Below, piece after piece: positions 10,953-30,084 of a DNA stretch of 62,006 nt. The notes beneath the pieces were generated by a model that worked only from the letters and a program-made list of their open reading frames with translations, did no database searches and was not told the origin of the DNA. This DNA comes from Kiloniellaceae bacterium. GTDB lineage: Bacteria > Pseudomonadota > Alphaproteobacteria > Kiloniellales > J153. Location: assembly GCA_021776095.1 (NCBI GenBank), contig JAJFGO010000012.1:1-62006 (forward strand), written 5' to 3'. The position numbers were made by a program, and so were the translations under genes. The stretch's first letter is position 1. Every line of letters starts with the position of its first letter.

Positions 10953-11648
10953 GTGACGGAGCGGCACAAAGAGCTTTCCGACTCTTGGATCGAGAACGCC
11001 GACCACTGGGTTCGGGCCGTACGCGACGGTCAGATCCCGAGCCGCAGGGCCGGAACCGATCAGGCCATCCTGGATGCGATTTCACGAGTCGTTGGCGAGC
11101 GAGACCCGGTAAAGCTGCTCGACATCGGCTGTGGAGAGGGTTGGCTGCTACGGCGCGTCGCCGAAATCCCGGGACTTCAGGGAGTCGGCATCGACGCCTC
11201 CACACCACTCATCGAGGCCGCCCGCCAAGCGGACCCCGTGAATCGGTACGAAGTGGTTTCCTACGCCGAATTGATTGAGGGGGCCGATTCCCTGGGCGAC
11301 GGGTTCGATGTCATCGCCTTCAACTTCGCGCTGTTGGCGGACGATTCGCTCGGCGTACTCAATGCCGCACGAGGGCGCCTGACCGGCGGCGGCACGATCA
11401 TCATTCAAACCCTGCATCCCGAGGTTGGCACACTCAGCGGCGAAACGCGCGATGGCTGGCGGATCGAGGATTTTATGGCTTTCGAGGACCAGGGTTGGAC
11501 GCCCATGCCCTGGTACTTCCGGACACTGGAGTCCTGGCACAAAGTCGTTCGAGAAGCGGGCCTAACCCTTCGAGAGCTGATCGAGCCGACCGCTGGGCCG
11601 GGTCAGGCACCTATGTCCCTGCTCATGGTCTGCGAGTCTGAGTCCTAG
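10953..11648 (+). CDS. Class I SAM-dependent methyltransferase
   Basis: A 231-residue Rossmann-fold methyltransferase. The SAM-binding motif I is LLDIGCGEGWLL near residue 50, motif II is the acidic GVGIDAS, and the motif IV region is VIAFNFALLAD. The protein starts with a GTG codon four bases after the SABATH stop, so the pair is one transcription unit. The C-terminal part (MPWYFRTLESW) resembles methyltransferases acting on small molecules, but the substrate is not identifiable. The stop overlaps the end of the convergent regulator gene by four bases. Confidence 0.82.
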   Translation: MTERHKELSDSWIENADHWVRAVRDGQIPSRRAGTDQAILDAISRVVGERDPVKLLDIGCGEGWLLRRVAEIPGLQGVGIDASTPLIEAARQADPVNRYEVVSYAELIEGADSLGDGFDVIAFNFALLADDSLGVLNAARGRLTGGGTIIIQTLHPEVGTLSGETRDGWRIEDFMAFEDQGWTPMPWYFRTLESWHKVVREAGLTLRELIEPTAGPGQAPMSLLMVCESES

Positions 11649-14600
11649 CGCGGTGAAATTGTCAGGGCAGCCGGCGCCGCCATCCGGCTTTCCCCCAGGC
11701 CCCAACTCGCGAAATGGGTCGACACGCCCAAAGCGCCGCACGTGGCGGTTTCCTGATACCGGACCCAATCGACGCCCGAATCCGTGGATCGCGCGTTTCG
11801 GGCGCGCCGGCCCCGAGGGTGCATGGCAAGGGTGAACGCGCCCGCCAAGGCGCGCAGGACGGGCGGGCGGGTCCAGGCCTGCCCATGGGACAAGCGCCAA
11901 GCCTGCAAGGATTGCCGCAAGGCGGCCTGGGAATCGCCGCGGCGCCGGCCAAGTTCCGACACGCCGGCATGGAACAAGGGCAGGTAAGGCAACGTCGCGA
12001 GATCGGCCGCCATCGCGATAACTTGCTCCAAATCTGCACGGGCCGCGTCCAGATACCCAAGTGCCAGATTTGCCTGGCCACGCAACCCCCGAACGACACA
12101 AGTCCGAATCAGATCGCCGTCCTCCTTGGCCAAAGACAGCGCGCGGTCCAATGCGGCGCGGGCCTCGGCCACGTTCCCCAACCAGGTCCGCGTCATACCC
12201 TCGATCTGTAACAATGCCGCTTCCGCTCTTGGATCGCGGTGCTTGGCAACCGCCTTGTGTGCGGTGGCAATGGCGTCGTCGGCCGCCCGGTCATCGCCGA
12301 TCAATCCTGCCATCATCGCTTGCGCGGCCGCGATTTCCCCAAGCTCGGACCAGGCCCCGAGTTTGCGCGCGCGTCGAGCCCCAGCTTCCAGGCTCGCAAC
12401 CAAGCGGCCCTTGGCCGGACCGTGGAGGTGCAGGCGAAACAGCAAGCGCTCGGCTAAGCACCAAGGCCCGGCCATGCCGCCATGGCGCGACGAAACGCGT
12501 AGCGCACGGCGCGCATAGCGCAGTGCTTCATCATCCTCGCCGGCGACGCTCAGGGCGCGGGACAAGGTGTGGAATAGAGCAATGGCATTGCGTGGACAGC
12601 CGTCGATCGGCCGGCGTCGTTCGAGCCCGCGAAGCTCAACCAACGCGGTGGCCGGATCGGCGTCGGCTTTCGCGATCGCCGCGCGCAAAGTGCCCACGCG
12701 CCAGAGCATCGCCTCAAACCACACGCCGGGCGACTGCTCACGCAAGACAACCTCAAGATCCGTCAAAGACTTGGATATGCCGCGCCGCGCACCGCGCGCG
12801 AAAGCCTGTTCCAAGTCGAGCATGCAGTACTCGGCCGCAGCCAAAGGCCGGCCTGCCACCTGACAATGATAGGCCAGAGCCCGGCAGTGCGGCGCCAAAT
12901 CCCCCGCATATACCTGTTGAAACGCGGCCGCGATCGCGGCGTGCATGGCCCGACGTCGGGGCTCCGGCAAATCGTCCCGTACCGCCTTGCGAAACCATGG
13001 GCGGACAAAGTCGAGAGACTCCGCCTGTCTTCGCATCACGCCTACGGCGACCGGCGCCTCCAATACCTCGACCGCGCGCGACGATGCGATGCCAGCCGCC
13101 CGGGCGCAAACGGCGAACTCGATTGGGGCTCGCATCAAGCTCGCGTAATGGATCAGCGCCCGCGCCGGCGGCGGGAAGCGGGCCAGGTCGTCGTGAGCAC
13201 TGTGAAGCAGATTCAGCGGCAGACCGGGCGGCTGCGCGCGAGCCGTGCTGTCGAGGCCAGCCAGCAGGACCTGCGGGTTGCCTCCGGCCAAGGCCAGAAT
13301 GCGCCGCCGACGGCGATCGCTAAGCTCCTCCGCGCCGCTTTCAGCCAAGGTGCGCTCGATCAAAGCCAGGGAATCAGCATGAGACAGCGGCGGCATGTCC
13401 AATTGCCGAACCAGGCGCGCTCTTTCCAAATCGCGCAGGACACCCGCGATTTGAGTCGGCGCCCGTGCTCGGCTTGAGCGCATGGCGATGACAAAAAGCA
13501 CCGGCGCCTTGCCCAGGCTATGTAGAGCCCGGTTCAAAAGGCGGAGACTCGGACCGTCGGACCACTGCACATCTTCCAAGATAATCGCCACAGGGCCGAT
13601 TGCGGCGGCTTCGCGCCACGTCGCCAGAATTTTGTCGAAAGTTTCGGACCAATTGCCGCCCGCAGGGCGTTGCGTCATGTCGGCCGCATGAGGCGGCGAT
13701 TGGTGGGGTACGAGGCCTTCGCGCAGCCGGTAAGGCGATGGTGGATCTGCGGCTTCGATCTCGGTGCGGAGAACCTCCTCGATTTGGCCCCACAGCCCCA
13801 GGGGCAGTAAGCGTTCGGCCCGGCGTACCGCAACCCGGTAGACCGGAGCGCCGCACCGCGCCAAGCGGGCCGCGAAAACATCCAAGAGATGGGTCTTGCC
13901 GATCCCCGCCTCGCCGCGCAAGTCAACCAGGTGGGCGCCCCTGTCATCGAGCGCATGAAACGCCTCAAGCAAGGCGCCCAGCACTCTCTCGCGTCCAATC
14001 GGCGGAGTATCTGGGTTCAGAACGTCGGCACAGGTAGGACTGCGCCCGGATAAAGGAACGAAGGCCCGTACGGCCATCTCCGCACAAACACGCTGAAACA
14101 GCGCCTCCGTCACTTCATCTGGACCGACGTCGAGCTCCCTGAGCAAGATCGCCCGGCAGGCCCGGTATTGGGTCAGCGCCGCGCCACCCTGGCCGTTCGC
14201 CACATACAACGACATAAGGTCGCGATGCACCGCCTCTTGGCAGGGGTCGAGGTCCAGAGCGCGCTTGGCGGTTTCGATGGCAGCGCCAAGTTCGCCGGCC
14301 TCGCGGTGACGCGCGAACAAGGTCTGCAGGCAATTTAGGGCGGTGATCTGAAACCGGATCCTCCGGTCCTGCAACCAGTCTTCGAAAACCGGCGCGTCCA
14401 GCGCCGGGCCCGGCAGAAACTCGCCCCGATACAGGTCCGCGGCATGCAGCAAGGCCGAGTTGCTTCCCGTGGCCGCCAGGGAGTCGAAGGTCTGAACATC
14501 GATGGTGAGGTCCTGGTCGCATAGCGCGACGTCGAGGCCCTCAATCTGCAAAATCCGCAGGTCGTGCGCGCTGAGCACTTGCGACAATTTCAGCAAGACT

Positions 14601-14806
14601 TGGCGAAGGTTTTGCCGGGATTTGCGGCTGTCGCTATCGCTCCACAAGAGCAGCGCCAAGTGTTCGCGCGATGCCCTAAGCCCTTGAGTGCAGGCCAGGT
14701 AAGCGAGCAAGGCCCGGCCCTTGGCCGTTCGAACGACGATCCCACGACCTTCCGCGGTCTCGAGCCGAAACCCACCGAGGAGCGACAATCTTGCGGAGAG
14801 CGGCAT
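11645..14806 (-). CDS. SARP/AfsR-like regulator: BTAD, AAA ATPase and TPR-like repeats
   Basis: A 1053-residue signal-integrating transcription regulator. Residues 1–90 form an OmpR-like winged helix (LSLLGGFRLETAEG at the start), and about 95–245 a bacterial transcriptional activation domain with TPR-like helices. A STAND/AAA-type ATPase follows at about 270–520, with Walker A GEAGIGKTH and Walker B VAIILEDVQW. The remaining roughly 500 residues are Ala/Leu-rich helices like the TPR sensor of AfsR and MalT relatives. Such proteins usually activate adjacent pathways on binding an unknown ligand. It ends four bases inside the preceding methyltransferase gene and is convergent with it. The last 60 residues are unlike the rest and may be an extension. 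Confidence 0.83.
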   Translation of the reverse strand: MPLSARLSLLGGFRLETAEGRGIVVRTAKGRALLAYLACTQGLRASREHLALLLWSDSDSRKSRQNLRQVLLKLSQVLSAHDLRILQIEGLDVALCDQDLTIDVQTFDSLAATGSNSALLHAADLYRGEFLPGPALDAPVFEDWLQDRRIRFQITALNCLQTLFARHREAGELGAAIETAKRALDLDPCQEAVHRDLMSLYVANGQGGAALTQYRACRAILLRELDVGPDEVTEALFQRVCAEMAVRAFVPLSGRSPTCADVLNPDTPPIGRERVLGALLEAFHALDDRGAHLVDLRGEAGIGKTHLLDVFAARLARCGAPVYRVAVRRAERLLPLGLWGQIEEVLRTEIEAADPPSPYRLREGLVPHQSPPHAADMTQRPAGGNWSETFDKILATWREAAAIGPVAIILEDVQWSDGPSLRLLNRALHSLGKAPVLFVIAMRSSRARAPTQIAGVLRDLERARLVRQLDMPPLSHADSLALIERTLAESGAEELSDRRRRRILALAGGNPQVLLAGLDSTARAQPPGLPLNLLHSAHDDLARFPPPARALIHYASLMRAPIEFAVCARAAGIASSRAVEVLEAPVAVGVMRRQAESLDFVRPWFRKAVRDDLPEPRRRAMHAAIAAAFQQVYAGDLAPHCRALAYHCQVAGRPLAAAEYCMLDLEQAFARGARRGISKSLTDLEVVLREQSPGVWFEAMLWRVGTLRAAIAKADADPATALVELRGLERRRPIDGCPRNAIALFHTLSRALSVAGEDDEALRYARRALRVSSRHGGMAGPWCLAERLLFRLHLHGPAKGRLVASLEAGARRARKLGAWSELGEIAAAQAMMAGLIGDDRAADDAIATAHKAVAKHRDPRAEAALLQIEGMTRTWLGNVAEARAALDRALSLAKEDGDLIRTCVVRGLRGQANLALGYLDAARADLEQVIAMAADLATLPYLPLFHAGVSELGRRRGDSQAALRQSLQAWRLSHGQAWTRPPVLRALAGAFTLAMHPRGRRARNARSTDSGVDWVRYQETATCGALGVSTHFASWGLGESRMAAPAALTISPR

Positions 14807-14827: not shown

Positions 14828-15784
14828 TCAATTATCGACCCGATCCTCGGGGCGGCGGCCAAGGCCACGCCGCGGATCCTCGGCCGTTATGGGTTCGGGA
14901 ACTTCCACAAACAGGATGGCATTGGCGCCGCCCCGCGCCCGAACCGGCACCGCCAGGGACCGGCGCTCATCGGCGAGCTTGACCTCCCTTGTCCGGACAG
15001 CGCCCAAAGGACCCAGTTCCACCGATCGCAAAGCTTCCGACGTCAGGAGCCTCTTTAGCACCTTGGGAAGGGCGCGGCCCGGGGCGATCTTGCCGCTGGC
15101 CTCAGGAAAGAGGTCGGCGATGGCCGCCGTGCAGGTTTCGACCCGGCCGTCGCGGCCGATCACGATCAAGCCAATGGCCCAATCGGTGAAAGCGCTGCCG
15201 GGCTCGTCGCGCGGCTTCCGCCGCACCAAGGCACGGGCACGGTCGTCGTCCCGTCGCGCAGCCGCCGCCAGGACGAGATGTTGGATCTCGCAAGGGTGAA
15301 TTGGCTTGAATTGCACGCTCAGGCGGTCGGCCGGCGGAATACGTGCGCTCAAATCCCTCGGATCGAAATCGCACTGTGCGGCGGTCAGCACGATCTGTAC
15401 TTCGGGGTCCAGGGCGCGGACCGCCTCGGCAACGTCGAGCCCCCAATAGGCAGGCGGCGCGCCGGCATCGACGAACACCGCCGTAAACGGCTGGCTATCC
15501 TCCAGGGCTCTCTGAACCGCCGCGACCGCGGCGGGACCGACGGTTTCAACCGTCAATTCGACTTCGGCCAAGCCGCCCGGACCACCGCGTATCCTGTGAA
15601 GTTCGGCCTCGAACGCCGGGCCGATGGAAGACGCGCCGGCGGATGACAGATCGGCTGGGCCGAGGACGATCCGAAAGTCCTCAATTGCCCAGTGATCCGT
15701 GTCGAATACCAACACCGGTAATGCGGAAGTCCCCAGTGCCTCGCCCCTACAAGCGTGTCGCAATGGCATACGATAACATAACAT
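14828..15784 (-). CDS. Receiver-like plus PAS-like signalling protein
   Basis: A 318-residue protein without a recognisable output domain. Residues 20–175 look like a receiver: VLVFDTDHWAIEDF at the acidic end, TAVFVDAG where the phosphoacceptor Asp should be, VLTAAQ for the Thr/Ser strand and FKPIHP for the conserved Lys. The acidic pocket is reduced (DTD rather than DD). Residues 190–300 resemble a PAS domain, beginning DWAIGLIVIGRDGRV. Its stop lies 22 bp before the SARP-like regulator start on the same strand, so the two may be co-transcribed. It could feed a signal to that regulator. The start is uncertain: ATG at 15784 or a second ATG five codons in, both near an AT-rich promoter region. 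Confidence 0.6.
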   Translation of the reverse strand: MLCYRMPLRHACRGEALGTSALPVLVFDTDHWAIEDFRIVLGPADLSSAGASSIGPAFEAELHRIRGGPGGLAEVELTVETVGPAAVAAVQRALEDSQPFTAVFVDAGAPPAYWGLDVAEAVRALDPEVQIVLTAAQCDFDPRDLSARIPPADRLSVQFKPIHPCEIQHLVLAAAARRDDDRARALVRRKPRDEPGSAFTDWAIGLIVIGRDGRVETCTAAIADLFPEASGKIAPGRALPKVLKRLLTSEALRSVELGPLGAVRTREVKLADERRSLAVPVRARGGANAILFVEVPEPITAEDPRRGLGRRPEDRVDN

Positions 15785-16102: not shown

Positions 16103-17344
16103 ATGCACGCGATTCACCCCCAAACCCCCACGGCCGCGCCGGACCGGGATCATCTCGGTGACGCCGAACGGCTCGCGCTCTATTGCCAGAACTTCGCGAT
16201 CGAGCGCGACCTGTCTGCAACCTTGAATGCGGCCCTGGAAGGCATGGTGCGAAACCTGCACGCGGAAATCGTGGAGGTGTTCCTTTGGCGCAACGATCCG
16301 GAGGGCTTCATCTTCGAATCCGCACGGGGGCGCTCGATTGCGCGCGGGCGGCAACCCGACCCGCGAGACCCCTACCTAGCACGTTGCCTTGGTGAGAAAA
16401 CGATCCTGGGCAGCCCCCAGACCGACATGATTGCGGCCGTGGCCTACGCCCCTCTACTACCCCTCGGTCGGCCGTGCGGGGTGGTGCGTTTGGTCCGTCC
16501 TCTGGGCCAAGGCGCCCTCGATTCCCGGGAGTCTGCCCTGTTCGGCGCCATGGCTAGCGCCGCTGCCCTGGCGATCGCAAACGCGCAGCTCTTAGCGACG
16601 GTCGAAGACCAGAGCGATACGACGCGCGACCTCGCCTTTGCAGCAGAAATTCAACGTCATTTGCTGCCCAGCGCCGCGGCCGGCGAATCCCCGATTTTTG
16701 GCCTCAACCGGCCGATCCGCCAAGTATCCGGCGACTTCTTCGATTTCTTCACCCTGCCAAACGGCAAGATCGCCTTCGCCCTGGGCGACGTTGCCGGCAA
16801 GGGCATGAACGCAGCCTTGCTCATGGCCAAGGCGGCCAGCCTGTACCGCTGCCTGGGCAAGACGATCTTTCACCCCGCCGAAATATTGGAACGCCTTAAT
16901 CGCGAGATCCACGAGACCGCCAGCCGGGGCATGTTCGTCACCATGGTCGCCGGCACCTACGATCCCGGGTCCGGCCGCCTGGAAATCGCCAATGCGGGGC
17001 ACGAGCCGCCGCTTCTGCGCACCATCGATCAGCGTTATGAGTCCTATCCGGCCGACGGGCCGCCCCTTGGGGTCCTGCCGGAGCTCAATCTTTCGACCCG
17101 CGAGGTCGAGATGTCCGGCGGCGAGTTTTTCATCTTCAGCGACGGCCTGACCGAGTTTCGCTATGGCCAGGGCGAGCAATTGGGCGTCGACGGTCTGATA
17201 CAGATGATTGAGGCCCTCTCGCCCATGCCGCTGGCCGTGCGCATGGAGGCCCTCCTATGCGAGTTGGACAAGGAAGGTTGGAGCATGCGGGACGACTTGA
17301 CCGTGCTGGTGATCGACGACTCATGGGTACAAAACAATGAGTGA
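16103..17344 (+). CDS. GAF–PP2C (SpoIIE/RsbU-type) serine phosphatase
   Basis: A 413-residue protein phosphatase. Residues about 30–165 form a GAF-like sensor; residues 185–410 are a SpoIIE-type PP2C domain. The metal-binding aspartates lie in VSGDFFDFF, LGDVAGKGM, FSDGLTEF and MRDDLTVLVI, in the usual order. A short coiled linker (TVEDQSDTTRD) joins them. In partner-switching systems such enzymes remove phosphate from a STAS antagonist, and here a STAS gene lies two genes downstream. The coding sequence overlaps the next gene by eight bases. It is the first gene of the seven-gene partner-switch/Mla operon. The signal sensed by the GAF domain is not apparent. Confidence 0.9.
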   Translation: MHAIHPQTPTAAPDRDHLGDAERLALYCQNFAIERDLSATLNAALEGMVRNLHAEIVEVFLWRNDPEGFIFESARGRSIARGRQPDPRDPYLARCLGEKTILGSPQTDMIAAVAYAPLLPLGRPCGVVRLVRPLGQGALDSRESALFGAMASAAALAIANAQLLATVEDQSDTTRDLAFAAEIQRHLLPSAAAGESPIFGLNRPIRQVSGDFFDFFTLPNGKIAFALGDVAGKGMNAALLMAKAASLYRCLGKTIFHPAEILERLNREIHETASRGMFVTMVAGTYDPGSGRLEIANAGHEPPLLRTIDQRYESYPADGPPLGVLPELNLSTREVEMSGGEFFIFSDGLTEFRYGQGEQLGVDGLIQMIEALSPMPLAVRMEALLCELDKEGWSMRDDLTVLVIDDSWVQNNE

Positions 17345-17795
17345 AGCCGCGCCTCTCCCCGCTGGCGATCTTGAGCTGACACGGGTTCTCCTGGAGGTCC
17401 GGTTTTGCGCTCGGGTCGACCGGATCAAGCTGATCCGCCGTGTGGTCGAGGCCTCGGCGCTGATGTGCGACCTGGCGTCCGAACATGCGCGGGACGTTGT
17501 GCTGGCGGTCGACGAAGCCTGCCAGAACATTATCGTCCACGGATACAAGAGCCAAGGCGGCGGCGAAATCGTTCTGACCCTGGCGAGCCTGGATGATGGC
17601 CTCTTGGTCGAGCTGCGCGACCAGGCGCCGCGCATCGATCCGGCCAGGATCCAGCACCGCGCCTTGCACGATGTCAAACCGGGCAAGCTGGGCTGTTACT
17701 TCATGAGCGCGATCATGGACCGGGTCGAATACCTGCCCGACCCGGGTGGCGGGAATCTGCTGCGCATGTACAAGCGAAAGGACGGCTCGTCATGA
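17337..17795 (+). CDS. RsbW-like anti-sigma/serine kinase (HATPase)
   Basis: A 152-residue protein with a GHKL ATPase fold of the RsbW/SpoIIAB type. The N-box is AVDEACQNIIVHGY; a G1-like loop reads LRDQAPRID (DQA where DxG is usual) and a G2-like loop GKLGCYFM. Such proteins phosphorylate a STAS partner on serine and bind either it or a target protein. The expected targets are the STAS protein encoded next (four-base overlap) and an unknown sigma factor or other partner; no sigma factor gene is in the window. The divergent G1 motif leaves kinase activity open, though binding may remain. Confidence 0.87.
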   Translation: MSEAAPLPAGDLELTRVLLEVRFCARVDRIKLIRRVVEASALMCDLASEHARDVVLAVDEACQNIIVHGYKSQGGGEIVLTLASLDDGLLVELRDQAPRIDPARIQHRALHDVKPGKLGCYFMSAIMDRVEYLPDPGGGNLLRMYKRKDGSS

Positions 17796-18124
17796 CCGAG
17801 TCCGAGAACGGAACTGCCAGCCGCCGGGTCGTGCACTTGGCGGGGGAAATCGATCTGGAGCACGCGCCGCAAATCCGCAAGGTGTTGCTCGGCGCGGTCG
17901 ATCAGGGCCGTTGGATCCTGGTCGATATGGCGGAGGTTTCCTATATCGACAGCTCGGGCATCGCCTGCCTGATCGAGGCCTTGCAGGAGGCCCGAAAGAA
18001 GGACGCCGACTTAGCCCTCTTCGCCGTCAATCCGCAGGCTTTGCGGGTCCTTGAGTTGGCCCGTCTAGACACGGTCTTCGCGATCCACCCGGATCTAACC
18101 AGCGCCGTGCAGGCGAAAGGTTAG
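17792..18124 (+). CDS. STAS-domain protein (RsbV/MlaB-like)
   Basis: A 110-residue single STAS domain. The key segment YIDSSGIACLIEAL carries the DSSG serine that is phosphorylated in anti-sigma antagonists such as SpoIIAA and RsbV. The same fold forms MlaB, the cytoplasmic subunit that binds MlaF in lipid ABC transporters. Position favours both readings: it overlaps the RsbW-like gene by four bases and lies 12 bp before the MlaE permease gene. The permease itself carries no N-terminal STAS domain, so this may be the missing MlaB. I infer it is the shared node between kinase, phosphatase and transporter; direct evidence is lacking. Confidence 0.85.
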   Translation: MTESENGTASRRVVHLAGEIDLEHAPQIRKVLLGAVDQGRWILVDMAEVSYIDSSGIACLIEALQEARKKDADLALFAVNPQALRVLELARLDTVFAIHPDLTSAVQAKG

Positions 18125-18136
18125 GGGGCTCGCGCG

Positions 18137-18925
18137 ATGCTCGCCTTCCTGGAACAGACCGGCCGGCGCGGCGTGCGCGCCTTCGATGAGTTGGGCTATG
18201 CCACGGTCCTACTCGGCGAGAGCCTGTTCTGGACCCTGTTCGGCCGGCGCTGGCGCCAGCCGGTACGCTTCGCCAGCGTGGTCGCGCAGATGATGCATGT
18301 GGGGATCGAGGCTCTGCCCATCGCCACCCTATTGGCCGCGGCAATAGGTTTCATGCTGGCGGTGCAAAGCCTCTACTCCCTGGGCTTGTTCGGCGCGGAG
18401 TCTTTCGCCCACGTCGGCATCGCCTTGGCCCTGATCCGCGAATTTTCGCCGCTGATCATCGGCATACTCATGGCCGGGCGGTCCGGTTCCGCACTGGCGG
18501 CGCGAATCAGCACCATGACCATCAATCAAGAGGTCGACGCGCTGCATACCATCGGCATCAACCCGGTTCGTTTCCTTGTGGCGCCCGCCCTGCTGGCCAT
18601 GGTGATTATGCTGCCGGCGCTAGCCATGTGGGCGAATCTGATCGGCCTGGGCGCGGCCGGTCTTCTGGTATCGTCTTCGCTCGACATCACCATGGCCGCC
18701 TTCGTCACCAACACCATCGAGGTTCTATCCCCCGGCGACATTTTGCACGGCCTGGGCAAGAGCGTGCTGTTCGCGGTCCTGATCGCGATCATTGCCTCAG
18801 TCAACGGTTCCCGGGTCCGCGGCGGCTCGGATGGCGTCGGCCGGGTCACGACCCGCTCCGTGGTCCACGCCATCTCGGCAATCATCGTGGCCGACATGAT
18901 TTTCGGTTTTTTGGCAACGACCTGA
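18137..18925 (+). CDS. mlaE: MlaE-type phospholipid ABC transporter permease
   Basis: The inner-membrane permease of an MCE-type lipid transporter, 262 residues. About five to six hydrophobic segments are visible, and the conserved cytoplasmic motif NQEVDALHTIGINP lies near residue 135, followed by FLVAPALLAM. The N-terminal amphipathic helix is present, but no STAS domain is fused. It is translated from ATG at 18137, and the ATPase gene begins three bases after its stop. Function: movement of phospholipid between outer and inner membranes; direction is not readable from sequence. Confidence 0.9.
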   Translation: MLAFLEQTGRRGVRAFDELGYATVLLGESLFWTLFGRRWRQPVRFASVVAQMMHVGIEALPIATLLAAAIGFMLAVQSLYSLGLFGAESFAHVGIALALIREFSPLIIGILMAGRSGSALAARISTMTINQEVDALHTIGINPVRFLVAPALLAMVIMLPALAMWANLIGLGAAGLLVSSSLDITMAAFVTNTIEVLSPGDILHGLGKSVLFAVLIAIIASVNGSRVRGGSDGVGRVTTRSVVHAISAIIVADMIFGFLATT

Positions 18926-18928
18926 ACG

Positions 18929-19804
18929 ATGACGATCGAGCACGCCCAAACCATCCCATTCGGTGACGCCCATGCACCGTCGGAATCAGCCGTCGCGGTG
19001 CGCGGTCTCAACGCCCACTTCGGCGCTACCCAGGTCTTGTACGATTTGGAGCTGACCATACGGCCGAGCGAAATCATGGTTATCATGGGCGGCAGCGGAT
19101 CGGGCAAGAGCACCTTTCTGCGTCACCTGATCGGTCTGGAACAGCCGAGCAGCGGCACGATCGAGCTGCTCGGCAAGGACATCACCCAACTTGGCCCGGT
19201 CGAGATGCTCGATCAACGGCGCCGCATCGGTGTCGCCTTTCAGGGCGGCGCGTTGTTCAGTTCGCTTTCGGTCGCGGAGAACATCAAACTGCCGTTGCGC
19301 GAACATACTCAGCTCGACGAAAAGACCATGGACATCATGGCGCGCATGAAGCTGGAGGTGGTCAACCTCGCCGGCTTCGGCGATCACATGCCCTCGGAGC
19401 TTTCAGGCGGCATGCTAAAGCGCGCCGCAGTCGCTCGGGCCATCGCCACCGACCCGAAGCTGTTGTTTTTCGACGAGCCCTCCGCCGGCCTGGACCCAGT
19501 CGTCTCAGCTGCCCTTGACGAGTTGATCGTGCGCCTGCGCGACGCCATGCAGATGACCATCGTGGTGGTCACCCACGAAATACACAGCGCTTTCAAGATC
19601 GCCGATCGGATCACGATTCTAGACCAGGGCCGGATCGTCGAGGTCGGCACGCCAGAGGAGGTGCGTAACAGCCCCAACCAGCGGATACAGGGCCTGTTGA
19701 ATCGCCGGCCCGACGAAACGCCGCTCGACCCCGAGGAATACCTGCGCCGCCTGTCGGGCGACGACCAAGGTTTAGACGACAGAACGAGAACACGGCATGT
19801 ATAG
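18929..19804 (+). CDS. mlaF: MlaF-type ABC transporter ATPase
   Basis: The ATP-binding subunit partnered with the MlaE permease. The 291-residue protein contains Walker A GGSGSGKST, a Q-loop in VAFQGGALF, the signature ELSGGMLKRAA, Walker B LLFFDEPSAGLDP and the switch His in VVTHEIHS. The N-terminal 20 residues and a C-terminal tail of about 40 residues lie outside the core fold. In E. coli the C-terminal extension of MlaF contacts the neighbouring ATPase and MlaB, so this tail could touch the STAS protein encoded upstream. The last eight bases overlap the MCE gene. Confidence 0.93.
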   Translation: MTIEHAQTIPFGDAHAPSESAVAVRGLNAHFGATQVLYDLELTIRPSEIMVIMGGSGSGKSTFLRHLIGLEQPSSGTIELLGKDITQLGPVEMLDQRRRIGVAFQGGALFSSLSVAENIKLPLREHTQLDEKTMDIMARMKLEVVNLAGFGDHMPSELSGGMLKRAAVARAIATDPKLLFFDEPSAGLDPVVSAALDELIVRLRDAMQMTIVVVTHEIHSAFKIADRITILDQGRIVEVGTPEEVRNSPNQRIQGLLNRRPDETPLDPEEYLRRLSGDDQGLDDRTRTRHV

Positions 19805-20765
19805 CAAAAAAGCAAATTACGTCCTGGTCGGATGTTTCGTATTGAGCATGACATTGGCGAGCTTCGTTTCGATCGCCATTTTGGCCGGGCGGACCGGGCC
19901 GACCGACCGCTACTTTCTGACGATGGACAACGTCGCCGATATCAAATACGGAACCCAGGTCCGCTTCGAGGGCTTTGCCGTCGGCCAGATCGAGCAGATC
20001 GAACCTGCCGAACCCGGCGCGGACGGCCGATTCCGGGTCGAGATCAGCGTCGCCGAGGGCTGGCGCATCCCGGCTGACAGCGTCACCCGTATCGGTAGTT
20101 CGAGTTTTTTGGCGGCGAAGACCCTGGATATCGAAAGCGGGCGCGCCACGGAGGCCGTCCCCAAGGGCGGGCGGATCGCCAGCGCCGCGCCGGACGACAT
20201 GTTCACAACCATGCGGGTCGCCGCCAACCGCTTAACCGCGCTCAGCGAGGGCAGCGTCAAACCCTTGCTCGGCACCCTGCAGTCCCTGGTCAGCACAATC
20301 GACCGCGACACGCCGCAAATTACGGCCGAGTTCGCCGCCTTCGCGCGCCGGCTGAATACCAGTTTGGCGCCGATTCAGGACATCCTGAACGACGAAAATG
20401 TCCAATCGGTCCGGCAGATCCTGGCCAATTCAGAGAGCACGACACAAACCTTGAGCGGCGCCAGCCGCGACCTTGCTGTCGCCATGGGCAATCTGCAGAA
20501 TCTAACCGGCAACATCGACGGCTTGGTCGAGTCGAACAACGCCAGCGCTGAGCAGACCTTGAAGGACCTTCAGTACACCCTGGCCTCGGTTTCGCGCAGT
20601 GTAGATACGATCGTGCACAACTTCGACGGCACGGCGCGCAATATGAACGAGTTTAGCCGGCTGATCCGCAACAACCCTGGCGTCCTCCTAGACAGCTCGC
20701 CGCGTGAGGCTGTTTCAGAGGCCAAAGCCAGCAGCCCCGCGCGTAAGCCCGAAAGCGCCCAATGA
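19797..20765 (+). CDS. mlaD: MlaD-like MCE-domain protein
   Basis: A 322-residue periplasmic MCE protein anchored by one N-terminal membrane helix (residues 7–30). The MCE domain lies at about residues 38–115 (DIKYGTQVRFEGFAVGQIE), and helical, Ser/Asn-rich sequence follows to about residue 290, longer than E. coli MlaD. The long C-terminal helices suggest a PqiB/LetB- or Mce-like tunnel extension rather than a simple ring. The start overlaps mlaF by eight bases and the stop overlaps the lipoprotein gene by four. It should form a hexamer on the MlaE–MlaF complex. Confidence 0.9.
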   Translation: MYSKKANYVLVGCFVLSMTLASFVSIAILAGRTGPTDRYFLTMDNVADIKYGTQVRFEGFAVGQIEQIEPAEPGADGRFRVEISVAEGWRIPADSVTRIGSSSFLAAKTLDIESGRATEAVPKGGRIASAAPDDMFTTMRVAANRLTALSEGSVKPLLGTLQSLVSTIDRDTPQITAEFAAFARRLNTSLAPIQDILNDENVQSVRQILANSESTTQTLSGASRDLAVAMGNLQNLTGNIDGLVESNNASAEQTLKDLQYTLASVSRSVDTIVHNFDGTARNMNEFSRLIRNNPGVLLDSSPREAVSEAKASSPARKPESAQ

Positions 20766-21391
20766 CCAATCGCAAACTCATACCTAGCATCCTGCTCTTG
20801 GCGATCCTGGGCGGTTGCCTTGGTGCTGCCCGGCCGGTACCTCGCGATCATTTTTACCGGATCGAGGTCGAAGTCGTTCAGGAACCGCCGGCGCGCCTTC
20901 CGGGTACCATCTCAGTCTCGCCGATCGACGCCGAGGGCCTGATGCGTGAACGCCCCATGCTGTTCAGCATCGGCGATGCACACGAAATACAGCAACACGA
21001 TTACCACTATTGGATCGAGAGCCCGCCACGCATGCTGCAAGGCCAGTTGGTGGATTTCCTGAGGCGGAGCGGCGCCGCGGATTCGGTGATCACGCCCGAC
21101 CTGCGGTTGCCCGCGGACTTCGAAGTGACCGGACGCATCCGGCGCTTCGAACGCGTCCTGCGGGCCGATGCTACCCGCGTGGTCGTCGAACTGGAATTAG
21201 CCATGGCCGATACCGGCGGCAAGCGCCTGGTGGTGGTAAAAAGTTATGGCGCCGAGGTTCCGGCCGAGGATGCCGGTGTCGAAGCTTCGGTACGGGCCAT
21301 GGATGTCGCATTGTCGGATATCTTCACGCGCTTCCTAGCCGACGCGGGCATCCGCAGCCGGGAACAACGCGCCGCCGCCGGTAAGGATTGA
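20762..21391 (+). CDS. ABC-type transport auxiliary lipoprotein (PqiC-like)
   Basis: A 209-residue outer-membrane lipoprotein. The signal peptide ends in a lipobox LGGCLG with the acylated Cys at residue 19. The following domain (VSPIDAEGLMRERPMLFS, then DYHYWIESPPRMLQGQLVDFL) matches the ABC-type transport auxiliary lipoprotein family of PqiC. Such proteins join MCE tunnels to the outer membrane. It closes the seven-gene operon; a convergent secretion gene ends 42 bp downstream. A separate MlaC-type protein is encoded at 40330, so this cluster may use either partner. Confidence 0.88.
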   Translation: MTNRKLIPSILLLAILGGCLGAARPVPRDHFYRIEVEVVQEPPARLPGTISVSPIDAEGLMRERPMLFSIGDAHEIQQHDYHYWIESPPRMLQGQLVDFLRRSGAADSVITPDLRLPADFEVTGRIRRFERVLRADATRVVVELELAMADTGGKRLVVVKSYGAEVPAEDAGVEASVRAMDVALSDIFTRFLADAGIRSREQRAAAGKD

Positions 21392-21433: not shown

Positions 21434-22393
21434 CTACTCAGCCTCCACCGCGATCGGGAATAGGATGCGCCGCCCCTGCTTCCAGCCCCAAAAGTCGTAA
21501 GGCGGCTCACTTGCTGTGCCGATTTCGACCACCGCCTCCCTGACAAAGACCGCGCCAGAATCGCTGCGCGCCTCAGAGTGAATTGTGAAAAAATTGGTTC
21601 GCGAGCGCGGTGGCAAGGGCTCGCCATCCTGAGCCGAGAATTCGCCGGGAACCGGCGGTTCGCGCGGCTCGTCGGCGCTCAATTCCGTATCGGGACCTAT
21701 GGTCTCGGGGGCTTCGGGGCCGTCCTTGCCAGCCACAGGTTCATCTGAGATCTCATCCGGCACCTCGCCGGCCATGGCGGCCCGGACCAGGGCCGGCGCC
21801 GTCGGCACGTGCGGCTCGCGCTGAGCCGCTTGCACGGTCAATGCCGGAGCCACCCGATCGAACAGCGCCGTGGTCATGCCGTAAACCTGCCGTAGCTCTT
21901 CAACCGCCTCAAAGGGGGCGTCCTTGGCTCCATAAGGTAGCTCGGCGTCGCTATAGTCGCGATCTTCGGCGCCATTCAGTTGGCGCAGGTCGTTGATGTC
22001 ACGATAGTCGACGATCCGGTCCACTAGGACAGCAGCGTCGTTCGAGCTTTCCCCGGCGGCCACCATCAAGGCTTTGAGCAAAGCATCCGTCGAAACGTTC
22101 AGGTCGATCTTGCCGCCTTCATCTTGGACACTGACTCGGATCTCTCCTGCGCCGAAGCGCCAACCGTAGACCGTTCCATCGACGCGCCACTGCCCCCCCT
22201 GCCCGCTCGCCATAAGACCCAGCAATGCCGCATGCACGCCGGCATCGGCCAGAGCTTCGGCTTGGGCGACCGCCGCCTGGTTGAAGGCAAGCTTGATTTC
22301 GGTTCGGGTCGAGTTAGAAAAGCTGGCGGCAATCAAGGAAAGCAGCGTCAGGACCCACAGCACCGTAATCAGCGCGAGTCCGCGCGCGTTCAT
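21434..22393 (-). CDS. gspK: Type II secretion minor pseudopilin GspK
   Basis: GspK caps the tip of the type II secretion pseudopilus. The 319-residue protein starts with a short leader and a hydrophobic helix (GLALITVLWVLTLLSL), a GspK-type start that lacks the Glu5 found in other pseudopilins. The body carries the inserted domain expected for this subunit (VDYRDINDLRQLNGAE and DAPFEAVEELRQVYGM). A Pro/Glu-rich stretch at about residues 195–265 is unusual and probably disordered. It follows gspD by 13 bp and is the last gene of the secretion cluster. Confidence 0.88.
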   Translation of the reverse strand: MNARGLALITVLWVLTLLSLIAASFSNSTRTEIKLAFNQAAVAQAEALADAGVHAALLGLMASGQGGQWRVDGTVYGWRFGAGEIRVSVQDEGGKIDLNVSTDALLKALMVAAGESSNDAAVLVDRIVDYRDINDLRQLNGAEDRDYSDAELPYGAKDAPFEAVEELRQVYGMTTALFDRVAPALTVQAAQREPHVPTAPALVRAAMAGEVPDEISDEPVAGKDGPEAPETIGPDTELSADEPREPPVPGEFSAQDGEPLPPRSRTNFFTIHSEARSDSGAVFVREAVVEIGTASEPPYDFWGWKQGRRILFPIAVEAE

Positions 22394-22406
22394 GGCAGGC
22401 CCGGCC

Positions 22407-24653
22407 TCATTGCGGTGCGACGATCTTTTGCTCTAGCGGCTCGATACCGGTCAAGCGTTTGCGAAGTTCGTCGGTGACGTCTTGCGCCTCGCGGCGATCG
22501 CGCACGACCCGCGGCGTGATCAGAACTAAAAGCTCCGTACGGCGCTGAGCATTGTTAGTGGTCTTGAACAAGTTGCCCAGAATGGGAATCTCGGACAGGA
22601 GGGGCAGGCCGCTCTTTGATTCTTGGTCGCGGTCTTGAATCAGGCCGCCTAGGGCGATGGTATCGCCACTCTGCACGGCGACGGTGCTCTCGATGCTGCG
22701 TTGCTGAATGGTCGGCGAGTTGAGTTCCGAGGTCGTGGTAGCGACCACGTCGCTGACCTCCTGCAAGACCTCCAGGGTGACCAGGCCGCCGGCATTGACG
22801 CGTGGGGTCACGGCCAAGATCACGCCGGTGTCGCGGAACTCGATGGAGTTCACCACCGGCGCACCGGTATCGGTAACCGACACGGCCGATTGCGTCGCGA
22901 TCGGCACCTGATCGCCGATCTGAAGACGCGCGCTTTGATTATCGAGCACCATCAATTGCGGCGAGGAGATCACGCGAACGTCTGTGATTTCGGTCAGGGC
23001 GTTCAGGACAAAGCGCGCGTCGCTGGGCGAGAAAACATAGGAGAAGCCGGGGAAGGCCGAAGCGACGGCGCCGTCGGCCAGGGTGCTGAAGCTGAGCCCG
23101 TTGTTACCCTTCTGGAAGAACCATTGCAGGCCGTAGCGCAATGTATCGTTCAGCATGACTTCCGCAATCGTCACTTCGATCAGAACCTGCAAGGGAACTA
23201 GGTCCAGGCGCTTCAAGGTCGCCTGGATCATGCGGTACTCGGCGGCCGTGGCCAGTACCACCAGCGCGTTGTTGCGCTCGTCGGCGATGATCCGGATGTT
23301 GCCGCTACTGGTGATCGCCGTAATGCCGGTGGTATCGGAAAGCCGCTGTCCTTCGCCGGGCACCGGGGCGGCCGGTGTTTGGGCGGTTAGGCCTTCGGCC
23401 GCAGGCGGCGCTATCGGCTGCTGGCTAGTCAGTGTAGCCGGGGTCAAGCCTGGTGCCAATCCGGCCGCGGGCGGGGTCGCCCCGCCGCTTTCGCCGGTCT
23501 CGAAAATGCGGGCCAAGACCTCCGCCAGGTCGGCCGCGCGGCCGTTTTGGACGTGATACACGTAAATGCGCCGTCCGGCACCCTCACCGCCGCGGTCCAG
23601 GCGGTCGATCCAGGTTTCGGCTTGGTCCAGATAGGCGGCTTGCGGCGAGATCACCAGAACCGAGTTCAAACGCTCGATCGGCACGAAGCGGACCAGGCCG
23701 GCCAGAGGGCTTTGGCCGTTTTGCAAAAACACGGTCTCCAGATCGGCCACCACCGCCTTGGCATCGGCGATTTGCACCGGGAACAGCGCGAACGACATGC
23801 CCGCCATCCAGTCCACATCGAAGACGCTGACCATTTCGATGAGGTCGCGTGCCTCGGGTCCGGTTCCGGCGAACACGATAAGGTTGCGTGCGGCATCGAT
23901 GCGGAACACCCGCCCGGGGCCGATGAAGGGGCGCAAGACCTCCGACATGGCCTGGACCGAGGCGTAACGCACCGGAATGATGTGAACCGCGAAGCCGCGC
24001 GCCGAATCACTCGCACGGGTCGACAGCACGGGGCTGGTCAGGCCGGTCGCGGCCTGTTGCAGCGTAACCACCTTGTAGACCCCGTTATCCAGGGTCAGGG
24101 CGGCACCGTTCAGGGCCAGGATGTTCTCCAGCGCCGGGATCACCGACCGGCGCGGTATCGGGCGGCTGGTGCGCGCGGTCACTTCGCCCTGAACCCGGGG
24201 GTCGATAATGTAGCTGAGCCCCAAGGCTTGCCCGAGCACGGCGTCGACCACCTCGCGGATCTCAGCATTGGCAAAATTCAAGGTGATATCGCCGTCGTCG
24301 ATCATGCCGACCTCGGTCCGCGACCCGGTGGGCCGGCGGGCCATGACGCCGGTGCCGCGGAACAGCTCCGGCTCCTCGACATCGGCCTCCAGGGCGTCGG
24401 GCAGCAGCGCAAGTTCCCCGAGCGGGCTCGCGGCCAGCTTGGTCGGGCCTGATCCGGCCCTGACCGTGCTCCGGCTCAAAGGGGCGGACTGGGCCGCCGG
24501 CATGTCAATACCCAAGGCATCGGACGCCGTGGCCGAGGGCCCGGCGTCGCGTGTGCCCTGGCAAGACGCCAGCGCAGCCAGCAACGCGCCCGCCAGCATG
24601 AACCGGCGGCTCAAAAAAAGGCGCGCGTCGCGACTTTTATCCCGGCATTTCAC
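22407..24653 (-). CDS. gspD: Type II secretion secretin GspD (predicted lipoprotein)
   Basis: GspD forms the outer-membrane secretin channel. The 748-residue protein has an N0 domain (ITLNFANAEIREVVDAVLGQ), further N-domains (MSEVLRPFIGPG, VVADLETVFLQ) and a C-terminal secretin core with VISSPQLMVLDNQSARLQIG and VNSIEFRDTGVIL. A Pro/Thr-rich linker occupies about residues 395–440. Unusually, the signal peptide ends in LASC with the lipobox Cys at residue 31, so the secretin itself may be lipid-anchored, and no pilotin gene is nearby. It is preceded by a 257-bp gap and followed by gspK. Confidence 0.92.
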   Translation of the reverse strand: MKCRDKSRDARLFLSRRFMLAGALLAALASCQGTRDAGPSATASDALGIDMPAAQSAPLSRSTVRAGSGPTKLAASPLGELALLPDALEADVEEPELFRGTGVMARRPTGSRTEVGMIDDGDITLNFANAEIREVVDAVLGQALGLSYIIDPRVQGEVTARTSRPIPRRSVIPALENILALNGAALTLDNGVYKVVTLQQAATGLTSPVLSTRASDSARGFAVHIIPVRYASVQAMSEVLRPFIGPGRVFRIDAARNLIVFAGTGPEARDLIEMVSVFDVDWMAGMSFALFPVQIADAKAVVADLETVFLQNGQSPLAGLVRFVPIERLNSVLVISPQAAYLDQAETWIDRLDRGGEGAGRRIYVYHVQNGRAADLAEVLARIFETGESGGATPPAAGLAPGLTPATLTSQQPIAPPAAEGLTAQTPAAPVPGEGQRLSDTTGITAITSSGNIRIIADERNNALVVLATAAEYRMIQATLKRLDLVPLQVLIEVTIAEVMLNDTLRYGLQWFFQKGNNGLSFSTLADGAVASAFPGFSYVFSPSDARFVLNALTEITDVRVISSPQLMVLDNQSARLQIGDQVPIATQSAVSVTDTGAPVVNSIEFRDTGVILAVTPRVNAGGLVTLEVLQEVSDVVATTTSELNSPTIQQRSIESTVAVQSGDTIALGGLIQDRDQESKSGLPLLSEIPILGNLFKTTNNAQRRTELLVLITPRVVRDRREAQDVTDELRKRLTGIEPLEQKIVAPQ

Positions 24654-24910
24654 GTCCCGCGTTCCCCCGAAGCGCCGGCTCGACCGTCCACCGTGAGCGG
24701 TAGAGTTTTTCCCGCGTTTCCATCTAATTAGATAAACTACACCTGGACAAGATGTAAACTTTAGCTAACGAATCGTAATGAGACGGAGTTAATAAAAGTT
24801 GAATAATACCGTGCGGGATCGTCGCGAACCGAAAATCCGCCAAACTTCTTCAAGTTTTTTTGAATACCGCCCCTAAAAAGACCGTCAGCCTCAACTTAGT
24901 CTAGACTATT
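24654..24910. promoter_or_regulatory. Intergenic region between gspC and gspD
   Basis: This 257-bp stretch is more AT-rich than its surroundings and breaks the otherwise tight secretion gene order. Between about 24715 and 24900 it holds several A/T runs, including AAACTTCTTCAAGTTT at 24843–24858, whose plus-strand reading is followed by T residues. It probably contains a separate promoter for gspD-gspK. No gene is visible. Confidence 0.45.
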
Positions 24911-25465
24911 TCATTCCTTTTTCGCTTTGGTGCCGGCTGCTGCCTGCTCTTTTGCGGCGCGCGGGCGTTTGGGCGGCAGATCGAAGCTGAGTTCGACCCG
25001 CTCGACCGCCTTATCGCGCCGAAAGGTCACTCGGTGGGGCTCGATTTGGGCAACCGTCCAACCTAGATACCGGTCGCCAACGGTAACCCTGGCGAAACTA
25101 TCGCTGCCGCGTGGCGCAACGATAGCGATAGGCGCGTCGGAGGCCACGATAACGCCGATCAGGCGAACGTCGAGTTCGGAACTCATGGTCTCGATGGTTA
25201 TTTCCTGCTCCTGCGTGGCCCGGCGGTCCGAGGCAAAGATCGGGCGCGCCACGATTTCCACGAAAGACTTGGCCGGCGGCATGGCGAAAGCAGTGTCGAT
25301 CGGACCCTGGCTGGCGGGAATGATCTCTCGCATGGTGGCGCTGGACCCTTCGGTAGAGACCCCGGGGGTCATGCTCAGCACGGTAAAAAGCGCCGCCGCG
25401 ACGAACAGGCCGCCGCCGGCCACACAGGCCGGCATAAACATCACGGATCTGCGGTTCACCATCAT
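24911..25465 (-). CDS. Type II secretion protein GspC/GspN-like
   Basis: A 184-residue bitopic inner-membrane protein. One membrane helix spans about residues 10–32; a periplasmic domain follows with ARPIFASDRR and LDVRLIGVIVAS, the homology-region pattern of GspC that meets the N0 domain of GspD. The typical C-terminal PDZ domain is absent and the chain ends in a Lys/Ala-rich tail. It overlaps the GspM gene by four bases. The short form is known in several alphaproteobacterial secretion systems; GspN is the alternative name. It likely joins the platform to the secretin. Confidence 0.78.
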   Translation of the reverse strand: MMVNRRSVMFMPACVAGGGLFVAAALFTVLSMTPGVSTEGSSATMREIIPASQGPIDTAFAMPPAKSFVEIVARPIFASDRRATQEQEITIETMSSELDVRLIGVIVASDAPIAIVAPRGSDSFARVTVGDRYLGWTVAQIEPHRVTFRRDKAVERVELSFDLPPKRPRAAKEQAAAGTKAKKE

Positions 25466-26073
25466 TTCTCTGCCTCGGGCCGGACATAACCGGTCAAGTC
25501 CAGGCGGACCAGCAAATCCGGATCGGTTGGCGCGCCGGCGCGCTGGCGTTTCTGGCGGTTGCTGATATCAAGGTTATCGACGAACAGGAACGTATCGCCC
25601 GCCTCGAAAGCATAGAGCATGCGCGCGACGGCCGCGATATTGGCGGTCATTTGAACGCGTACACCGACCCGGCGGAAATCGCCATCGTCGCGGGGCGGCA
25701 AAATTTGGACGCTACGCACTTGCCCGCCGTTCGATTCAACCCGCGCGTTGACAATTTCCTGCAAGCGGGCTGCGGACAAGGCGTCGGTTTCGCCGGGCAG
25801 GTAGACGCCGCTTTCCGTATGTGTCGCGCTGACCCGGTCGAGCAGTGCCTTGTGGACGGATTGCTGGGCCGCGACCCTTTGGTAACGCGCCAAAAGGTCG
25901 CTGGACTGCGCAATCTCGCCGTTGATCTGGCTATAGGCCGCAACCAATGGCGCCACCAGCAAGCTGTAGCCAACCAACAGCAAGACGAGCAAAACCCCGA
26001 CCGCCGTCGCACGGCTCATCCAAGGCGATGAGAACACCGCGCCGCCACCGATCGATTCAGACCCGCTGGCCAT
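25462..26073 (-). CDS. gspM: Type II secretion platform protein GspM
   Basis: A 203-residue inner-membrane platform protein. One membrane helix at about residues 22–42 is followed by a short coiled segment (QINGEIAQSSDLLARYQRV) and a ferredoxin-like periplasmic domain. The domain contains the SVQILPPRDDG and VRVQMTANIAAVARMLYAFE pattern of the T2SSM family. It lies directly behind gspL and overlaps gspC by four bases. GspM normally pairs with GspL. Confidence 0.8.
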   Translation of the reverse strand: MASGSESIGGGAVFSSPWMSRATAVGVLLVLLLVGYSLLVAPLVAAYSQINGEIAQSSDLLARYQRVAAQQSVHKALLDRVSATHTESGVYLPGETDALSAARLQEIVNARVESNGGQVRSVQILPPRDDGDFRRVGVRVQMTANIAAVARMLYAFEAGDTFLFVDNLDISNRQKRQRAGAPTDPDLLVRLDLTGYVRPEAEK

Positions 26074-27198: not shown

Positions 27199-27361
27199 CT
27201 TTTCTCTGGGTTTATCCTACATTACGCCCAGCATTTATACACGCCCCACCTAGAGTGAATTAATCAGCTGGACACACCAATCATGGTGCAGATTTCTTAA
27301 CAATTATCACAGAAGATCATTCGCCGTATGTGTCCGATTTACGTTTTTTGGGGGTCAAGGG

Positions 27362-28024: not shown

Positions 28025-28046
28025 ACTGACCCGGCCCGGATTTGCC

Positions 28047-28727: not shown

Positions 28728-29179
28728 TGGGCCGGTCCCAGGCGCAAGGTCTTCAGCGAGAGGCCGCCGCCCCGCGGCCCGGCGACCCGTACCTCGACCT
28801 CGTAAGGGATCGCGATCGGCTGCACCGGACCGAACTCACCCTGATCTTCGACCCGTGCGATCACCACCGACCAACTATAGCCGTCGTTGAATTCGCCGCT
28901 CAGTTCGCCGTCTTCCAGGGCGATGGTCTGGCCGACCTCATCCATCTTGGAGCGGGCATGCATGACTGCGGTGGCGCTCGCCTGGGCCGCGCTCAAGCCG
29001 TGCATGCCGGTCGCAAAGGCTTGCAACAGACCGACCAAAGCGACCGCCAGGATAGTGAAGGCGACGATCACCTCCAGCAGGGTGAAGCCGCCGACCCGCC
29101 GACCCAGCGCACGCCGGGGCGCGGGCCGGCGCTCAGTCCCTGAGTTCAACCCGCCCGGTGAGCCAATCGACCACAACAT
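28724..29179 (-). CDS. gspI: Type II secretion minor pseudopilin GspI
   Basis: A minor pseudopilin with leader GGFTLLEVIVAFTIL. The body continues with SAAQASATAVMHARSKMDEVGQ-type sequence typical of the family. The start is uncertain: ATG at 29179 lies 47 bases inside gspH and gives a 31-residue leader, while TTG at 29149 gives a 21-residue leader closer to normal. Both would be translationally coupled to gspH. The protein has 141–151 residues. Confidence 0.83.
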   Translation of the reverse strand: MLWSIGSPGGLNSGTERRPAPRRALGRRVGGFTLLEVIVAFTILAVALVGLLQAFATGMHGLSAAQASATAVMHARSKMDEVGQTIALEDGELSGEFNDGYSWSVVIARVEDQGEFGPVQPIAIPYEVEVRVAGPRGGGLSLKTLRLGPAQ

Positions 29180-30037: not shown

Positions 30038-30084
30038 CTCTGTTGTGTATCAATGGCATGGCTTCAATCCCTGAAACCAATATC

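Follow-up and report, generated by a model that had tools for sequence, protein, structure and literature searches.

The window analyzed here is a stretch of 62,006 nucleotides from a Kiloniellaceae bacterium (assembly GCA_021776095.1, contig JAJFGO010000012.1, positions 1 to 62,006). Between positions 16103 and 21391 it carries seven open reading frames (ORFs), all on the forward strand, in the order SpoIIE phosphatase, RsbW-type kinase, STAS protein, MlaE, MlaF, MlaD and PqiC-like lipoprotein, which sets a partner-switching module beside an MCE/Mla-type lipid transporter. The successive junctions are an 8-nt overlap, a 4-nt overlap, a 12-nt gap, a 3-nt gap, an 8-nt overlap and a 4-nt overlap. 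The original prediction, made from the letters alone, had described seven genes overlapping or at most 12 bp apart, a permease without a fused STAS domain and a STAS protein with a DSSG serine. All seven ORFs were recovered with the domains it had named, the window MlaE (262 amino acids, aa) carries no STAS domain (a permease encoded elsewhere in the genome, on contig C118, does), and the motif reads D53-S54-S55-G56. Domains were assigned with Pfam, and all matches on the seven genes except GAF_2 exceeded their gathering scores:

16103..17344, + strand: SpoIIE/RsbU PP2C-type phosphatase, 413 aa, with a GAF-like region in front (PF07228, 141 bits; GAF_2, 17 bits, below its cut-off)
17337..17795, + strand: RsbW/SpoIIAB-type serine kinase, 152 aa (PF13581, HATPase_c_2, 86 bits; relatives in the Protein Data Bank (PDB) are RsbW and SpoIIAB)
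17514..17516 and 17526..17528, + strand: codons of kinase E60 and N64, conserved, likewise D95
17792..18124, + strand: STAS protein, 110 aa, proposed to serve as substrate of the kinase and as MlaB-like subunit (PF01740, 70 bits; STAS_2, 63 bits)
17951..17953, + strand: Ser54 codon, the proposed phosphorylation site; aligns with Thr52 of MlaB and with the serine of RsbV/SpoIIAA
18137..18925, + strand: MlaE-type permease, 262 aa, without fused STAS (PF02405, 210 bits, cut-off 22.5)
18929..19804, + strand: MlaF-type ATPase, 291 aa (ABC_tran, 109 bits; structural match to MlaF chains)
19727..19753, + strand: MlaF C-terminal helix DPEEYLRRL (Tyr271, Leu275), candidate handshake/STAS-groove element
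19797..20765, + strand: MlaD-type MCE protein with a long C-terminal part, 322 aa (PF02470, 44 bits, cut-off 25.1)
20762..21391, + strand: PqiC-like lipoprotein, 209 aa (PF03886, ABC_trans_aux, 52 bits, cut-off 26)

The window MlaE fell below the stricter cut-off of TIGR00056 (194 vs. 212 bits) and MlaD below that of TIGR00996 (83 bits, cut-off 140.5). PDB relatives of the permease were the MlaE chains of Pseudomonas aeruginosa, Escherichia coli and Acinetobacter baumannii, and Mce1 permeases. The tight packing of the genes suggests that all seven are co-transcribed; a promoter scan was uninformative, finding two promoter-like sites where 1.7 were expected from shuffled sequence and seven terminator-like sites where 5.7 were expected.

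The operon is real, conserved and dedicated. Among 98 related genomes, host included, 22 encoded an MlaE of the operon type with 52–85% identity to the window MlaE (other full-length matches listed reached at most 41%; the copy in G060 is incomplete, at 65%). The 22 relative loci fetched from 21 other genomes (G005 contributes two) all have the order SpoIIE-RsbW-STAS-MlaE, and 19 hold the complete set of seven; of the others, L055 and L072 are cut by contig ends, and no PqiC was recognized in L069. By the same search, the 13 other MlaE loci of the related genomes (L073–L085) showed no switch module. A scan of genome contigs gave 560 confirmed relatives, the best 80 of which (hereafter the named loci) are labelled mostly as Rhodospirillales, then as Gammaproteobacteria, along with metagenome-assembled genomes (MAGs) labelled Deltaproteobacteria, Myxococcota, Marinimicrobia and Nitrospirota (such labels are not always right). 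The order SpoIIE-RsbW-STAS-MlaE occurred in 62/68 named loci that had 2300 bp or more of sequence before MlaE, and all seven genes stood in order in 54/60 with both flanks. The original prediction had called for such a survey of gene order, and its outcome is favorable; chance gene adjacency was ruled out by the recurrence of the order in relatives and named loci. The six of the 68 that depart from it are L098 and L116, where SpoIIE was not recognized (L116 is partly masked), L137 and L142, which lack both STAS and kinase, and L162 and L168, which have the STAS gene with no kinase in the neighborhood; L161 and L164 had the module and MlaE with no MlaF found beside them. Directly before STAS-MlaE in L168 lies an ORF (6776–7639) with a GGEEF motif, diguanylate-cyclase-like by eye. 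In a FastTree phylogeny of MlaE, from which four relatives (L060, L064, L067 and L072) were left out, 99 members formed one clade (support 0.85) and the kinase-less members fell at three separate places, a pattern as expected of losses.

Conservation was also traced from the kinase. A profile of 25 kinases (A6) gave 23 matches of at least 129 bits in the 98 related genomes, the next match scoring 66.7 bits, and this kinase subfamily was present in 22/22 genomes with operon-type MlaE and 0/76 without it. At E ≤ 1e-25 it occurred in at least 19/385 genomes of the class and at least 8/398 of the phylum (lower bounds, with up to ten candidates scored per genome). Mla genes were adjacent in 13 of 19 newly fetched kinase loci and not in six. 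Three of the adjacent ones (L192, L197 and L205) have an MlaE outside the main clade (clade support 0.785), and L205 shows a changed order, RsbW-STAS-MlaF-MlaE-MlaD, with a weak SpoIIE match further on. L202 holds a STAS-RsbW pair; the clade MlaE of its genome (G517) lies elsewhere, with no STAS recognized in the ~1.4 kb upstream, and this split arrangement fits a partnership in trans. In L189, L196 and L201, from single-contig genomes of 1.2–1.3 Mb (G157, G354 and G431), an RsbW-like kinase stands alone with no STAS or SpoIIE within ~6 kb, and no MlaE in these genomes matched the profile.

The host genome (4.98 Mb in 122 contigs, 95% complete, 4.4% contaminated) encodes three MlaE permeases: the operon one, a 273-aa frame (C85) and a 385-aa frame with a fused STAS (C118), the last followed by MlaD and a PqiC-like gene. 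The operon phosphatase is its sole SpoIIE-family match above the cut-off (one of two; the other scored 18.5 bits), and the operon kinase its sole HATPase_c_2 match above the cut-off (one of 17), the other 16 being weak matches, probably to histidine kinases. With PF01740, two STAS domains were detected, that of the operon and the fused one on C118 (the STAS_2 model was not run genome-wide). A search for region-3 sigma factors, which did not extend to extracytoplasmic function (ECF) ones, returned one above the cut-off (a 686-aa frame of RpoD size) and two weaker matches below it, and no SigB/SigF-type sigma factor was seen. The original prediction had named as its own refutation a sigma factor as the sole STAS partner together with an unconserved order; the order is conserved, and a dedicated SigB/SigF-type target was set aside on this search, with housekeeping or ECF sigma factors as the possible ones left. 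The conserved order, the one-to-one co-occurrence, the position of these genes as the sole ones of their kind in the genome and the association with other MlaE lineages strongly support a functional link between switch and transporter.

Across a 23-row alignment, the phosphatase retains the motifs SGDFfD, DVsGKG, DGLtE and rDDlT, and the kinase residues E60, N64, H68 and D95 are identical in 25/25 aligned relatives. We take the former to be the metal site, with roles carried over from SpoIIE; E60 and N64 are presumably the N-box Glu and Asn of a GHKL kinase, their catalytic roles assumed from SpoIIAB. By sequence, both enzymatic parts of partner switching are in place, a PP2C phosphatase with its motifs and a GHKL kinase with N-box Glu and Asn. 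The SpoIIE and RsbW matches share one stop-to-stop frame in 46/80 named loci (among them L144, cut by a contig end) and likewise in the relatives L063 and L069, and GAF, SpoIIE and HATPase_c_2 were all found in the eight one-frame loci scanned (8/8).

The STAS alignment comprised 100 rows from 77 of the 80 named loci, the window and 22 relatives; L137, L142 and L143 have no STAS row, and L064/L091 and L067/L092 are probably the same records, so the rows are not all distinct. Ser54, Ser55 and Ala58 are kept in 100/100 rows, Glu62 in 99/100 and Gln65 in 98/100. Ser54 aligns with the RsbV serine. A 23-relative STAS profile matched E. coli MlaB (6xbd_K, E 2.9e-5, positions 18–92 to 16–88) and the MlaB chain 6zy2_B (43–93 to 39–89), and the count of columns in the profile alignment is consistent with Ser54 falling on MlaB Thr52. 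The window STAS passed TIGR00377, the anti-sigma factor antagonist superfamily (75 bits, cut-off 53.45), and the MlaB model NF033618 was matched by all 23 STAS relatives (best E 5.2e-9; cut-offs shown for the first member only). RsbV and TM1442 differ from the clade STAS proteins at positions 58, 62 and 65, and these positions may therefore mark an MlaF-facing second helix. In E. coli, according to the available text of Kolich et al. (PMC7367683), the second helix of MlaB makes most of the MlaF contacts. L190, L199 and L202 weigh against this idea, as they keep Glu62 and Gln65 without an adjacent MlaE. Two loci (L188 and L200, in G118 and G410) have two tandem STAS genes between kinase and MlaE; the copy on the MlaE side keeps Ala58, Glu62 and Gln65, and the kinase-side copy has Glu58 and Arg65, possibly a split of the substrate and subunit roles.

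In E. coli (PMC7367683, available text), the C-terminal extension of MlaF forms a short helix (Tyr261, Leu265 and Leu266) in the groove between the neighboring MlaF and MlaB; it is needed for function and complex assembly and not for MlaB binding in pull-downs. The pattern Y-[LIVM]-x-[RKAE]-[LI], which we devised ourselves, was found near the MlaF C terminus in 95/97 clade MlaF proteins, a clade that counts as one evolutionary event, and in 0/13 paralogues; the misses are L055, cut by a contig end, and L142, where Phe replaces Tyr. The best chains for the window MlaF model were P. aeruginosa and E. coli MlaF (Z 34–35), and the model aligned through the C-terminal helix (model 397–652 to E. coli MlaF 6xbd_I 5–261; Z 34.0, root-mean-square deviation 1.9, 254 aligned). 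The window helix is a candidate handshake-type element with Tyr/Leu spacing as in E. coli MlaF. Read-through chains were folded, in the three-gene case from a 47-row alignment (A4); structure comparisons were made chain by chain and are not informative on complexes. The RsbW-STAS model of the relative L128 (mean predicted local distance difference test (pLDDT) 90.6, predicted template modelling score (pTM) 0.88) has two well-placed domains and a disordered linker, and its domains match RsbW/SpoIIAB and SpoIIAA-type chains, the STAS domain also matching P. aeruginosa MlaB (7cha_K, Z 13.0).

Phosphorylation of MlaB Thr52 has been proposed before, without a kinase (Thong et al., PMC5016091; Kolich et al., PMC7367683). 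In the available text of both papers, E. coli Thr52 lies near the center of the MlaF-MlaB interface, T52E weakens MlaF binding, and T52A keeps binding and abolishes ATPase activity. Our literature search, confined to open-licence papers, found no description of the operon, and the available text of a review on STAS-only proteins (PMC8256260) does not mention MlaB. The original prediction knew of no description of such control, which holds for this operon in that literature and fails for the general idea, as the Thr52 proposal shows.

We hypothesize that the partner-switching module is in charge of the lipid transporter. Unphosphorylated STAS protein would, like MlaB, bind MlaF on its helical face, making or stabilizing an active MlaF2E2D6 complex. 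RsbW would bind the STAS protein and phosphorylate Ser54, whereupon the STAS protein would leave MlaF and transport would fall; once the sensor region is triggered, the GAF-SpoIIE phosphatase would strip off the phosphate and turn transport on. Control of the transporter after translation through the STAS protein, an MlaB-like subunit whose state is set by RsbW and SpoIIE, is the most economical mechanism and in our judgement the probable one. Its computed support comprises the gene content, conserved order, one-to-one co-occurrence, intact catalytic motifs, invariant Ser54, the confident RsbW-STAS model of a relative and the MlaF helix. Phosphorylation, STAS-MlaF binding and the direction of the switch are inferred, and so are the signal, which lipid is carried and which way it moves. 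The earlier proposal that STAS phosphorylation switches lipid transport has gained the switch-transporter link (order and co-occurrence) and a confidently modelled RsbW-STAS pair from a relative; the dual role of a single STAS protein, as substrate of the kinase and as subunit with MlaF, is, as before, something we infer.

Several observations weigh against this mechanism. The window STAS fails the NCBIfam MlaB model (mlaB_1, NF033618; 23.4 bits, E 6e-5, cut-off 90). After its third helix, the L128 STAS model has a strand (268–270) and a helix (273–280) that are extra with respect to E. coli MlaB, which is a short STAS protein without the fifth strand and last helix (PMC7367683, available text), and the window STAS model has a strand (97–99) and a helix (102–107) at the same place. 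In the STAS-MlaE-MlaF read-through model of the window (pLDDT 87.9), pTM is only 0.51 and the placement of STAS is not fixed by the model. Operon-type MlaE occurs with no STAS or kinase nearby in L137 and L142, and SpoIIE-RsbW-STAS occurs with no adjacent MlaE and no clade MlaE in the genome in L190 (G171, 81% complete) and L199 (G400, 100%), so the module can exist without the operon-type transporter. The kinase-less L162 and L168 still keep Ser54, and STAS domains fused to other MlaE proteins have Thr (9/11) or Ser (2/11) at its position, counted over the 11 in which the motif was located (it was not located in L047, which is omitted). Since fused and kinase-less STAS proteins keep Ser/Thr there, the serine was rejected as proof of phosphorylation. 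Kolich et al. themselves found the T52A result hard to reconcile with simple phosphoregulation (PMC7367683, available text).

The transporter could instead stand in the place of the sigma factor, with RsbW itself binding and inhibiting MlaF and the unphosphorylated STAS protein, not a subunit, drawing RsbW off. The module has the standard three parts for this, its STAS protein scores above the threshold of the anti-sigma-antagonist superfamily and below that of MlaB, and L188 and L200, each with two STAS genes, show that acting as antagonist and acting beside MlaE could fall to different copies. However, MlaF of E. coli depends on a STAS subunit (PMC5016091 and PMC7367683, available text) and the permease here has none fused, no further stand-alone STAS is detected by PF01740 in the host genome, the kinase-less L168 keeps STAS beside MlaE, and the literature search turned up no RsbW-type protein binding an ABC ATPase; we regard this arrangement as unlikely. 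It also seems improbable that RsbW is an anti-sigma factor for a housekeeping or region-3-less sigma factor, with the transporter genes merely co-transcribed or in its regulon. RsbW, RsbV and SpoIIE relatives do mostly act on sigma factors, in vitro the RsbW of Chlamydia trachomatis binds the primary sigma factor (PMC4552016, available text), and G171 and G400 have the module without Mla. Yet the only region-3 sigma factor above the cut-off in the host genome is the RpoD-size one (ECF not searched), and the conserved order, in which STAS adjoins MlaE or MlaF even where MlaE is of another lineage, can be explained without a sigma gene.

An operon of convenience, in which STAS is a constitutive MlaB subunit with a structural or catalytic hydroxyl and the kinase-phosphatase pair serves an unlinked target, would account for Ser/Thr in MlaB-like STAS domains without a neighboring kinase, and for the loss of ATPase activity without loss of binding in E. 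coli T52A (PMC5016091, available text). We consider it very unlikely, as the kinase subfamily tracks operon-type MlaE one to one across the 98 genomes and the host genome has no second stand-alone PF01740 STAS protein to serve as substrate.

Several known systems resemble the operon in part. E. coli MlaFEDB shares with the operon the MlaE, MlaF and MlaD families, a separate STAS protein, a hydroxyl at the Thr52 position and an MlaF C-terminal helix with Tyr and, four residues on, Leu. The operon differs in having no MlaC among its seven genes, a longer MlaD, a PqiC-like lipoprotein and a STAS that scores below the MlaB cut-off; it encodes both a kinase and a phosphatase, whereas none is reported for MlaB in the available text of PMC5016091 and PMC7367683. 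The chimeric Mla-Pqi system Mpc of Brucella (PMC12436622, available text) likewise has a permease, an ATPase, a long MlaD (331 aa) and a PqiC-like lipoprotein, but its STAS is fused to the permease, the layout of C118 in our host, whereas the operon has a detached STAS and a kinase-phosphatase pair. RsbU-RsbV-RsbW and SpoIIE-SpoIIAA-SpoIIAB likewise combine a PP2C phosphatase, a GHKL kinase and a STAS protein that carries the conserved serine; in the operon no sigma gene is among the seven, and transporter genes are the neighbors instead. In the SypE-SypA system of Vibrio fischeri, a dual kinase/phosphatase acts on Ser56 of a STAS protein whose target is described as unknown, a likeness to the 46/80 named loci with kinase and phosphatase in one frame. 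SypA controls biofilm formation, and the available text of the review (PMC8256260) links no lipid transporter to it.

Upstream of the operon and divergent from it lie a 318-aa protein that neither Pfam nor NCBIfam matched (14828–15784, − strand) and a large BTAD/AAA/TPR regulator (11645–14806, − strand), separated from the operon by an AT-rich gap of ~320 bp. Convergent type II secretion genes adjoin it on the other side (21434–33041, − strand; GspK-like, GspD-like secretin, PilN/PilM-like, T2SSF and T2SSE). Further upstream, positions 9833–10948 (+ strand) encode a Methyltransf_7 protein (PF03492, S-adenosylmethionine-dependent carboxyl methyltransferase; 98 bits, cut-off 29.8), a family known chiefly from plants.

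In 2020, Kolich et al. (PMC7367683, available text) described the control of MlaB activity as unsettled; phosphorylation was among the possibilities they named, and no kinase was known. The operon places a candidate kinase, phosphatase and STAS protein together, so the question becomes testable with three purified proteins, and going by record labels it is kept in Alphaproteobacteria, Gammaproteobacteria and a few further lineages, with cultured harmless strains such as Insolitispirillum peregrinum DSM 11589 (L102) and Terasakiella pusilla DSM 6293 (L113) among its carriers. We lean slightly towards a broader reading, in which a serine kinase and phosphatase, widespread and dedicated to the task, would switch an intermembrane lipid ABC transporter in a matter of seconds through STAS phosphorylation, the Thr52 hydroxyl of MlaB being a trace of the same control or the site of an undiscovered kinase. 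If true, partner switching would act here on a membrane transporter instead of on transcription, and lipid traffic to the outer membrane would be tuned post-translationally by a module best known from transcription.

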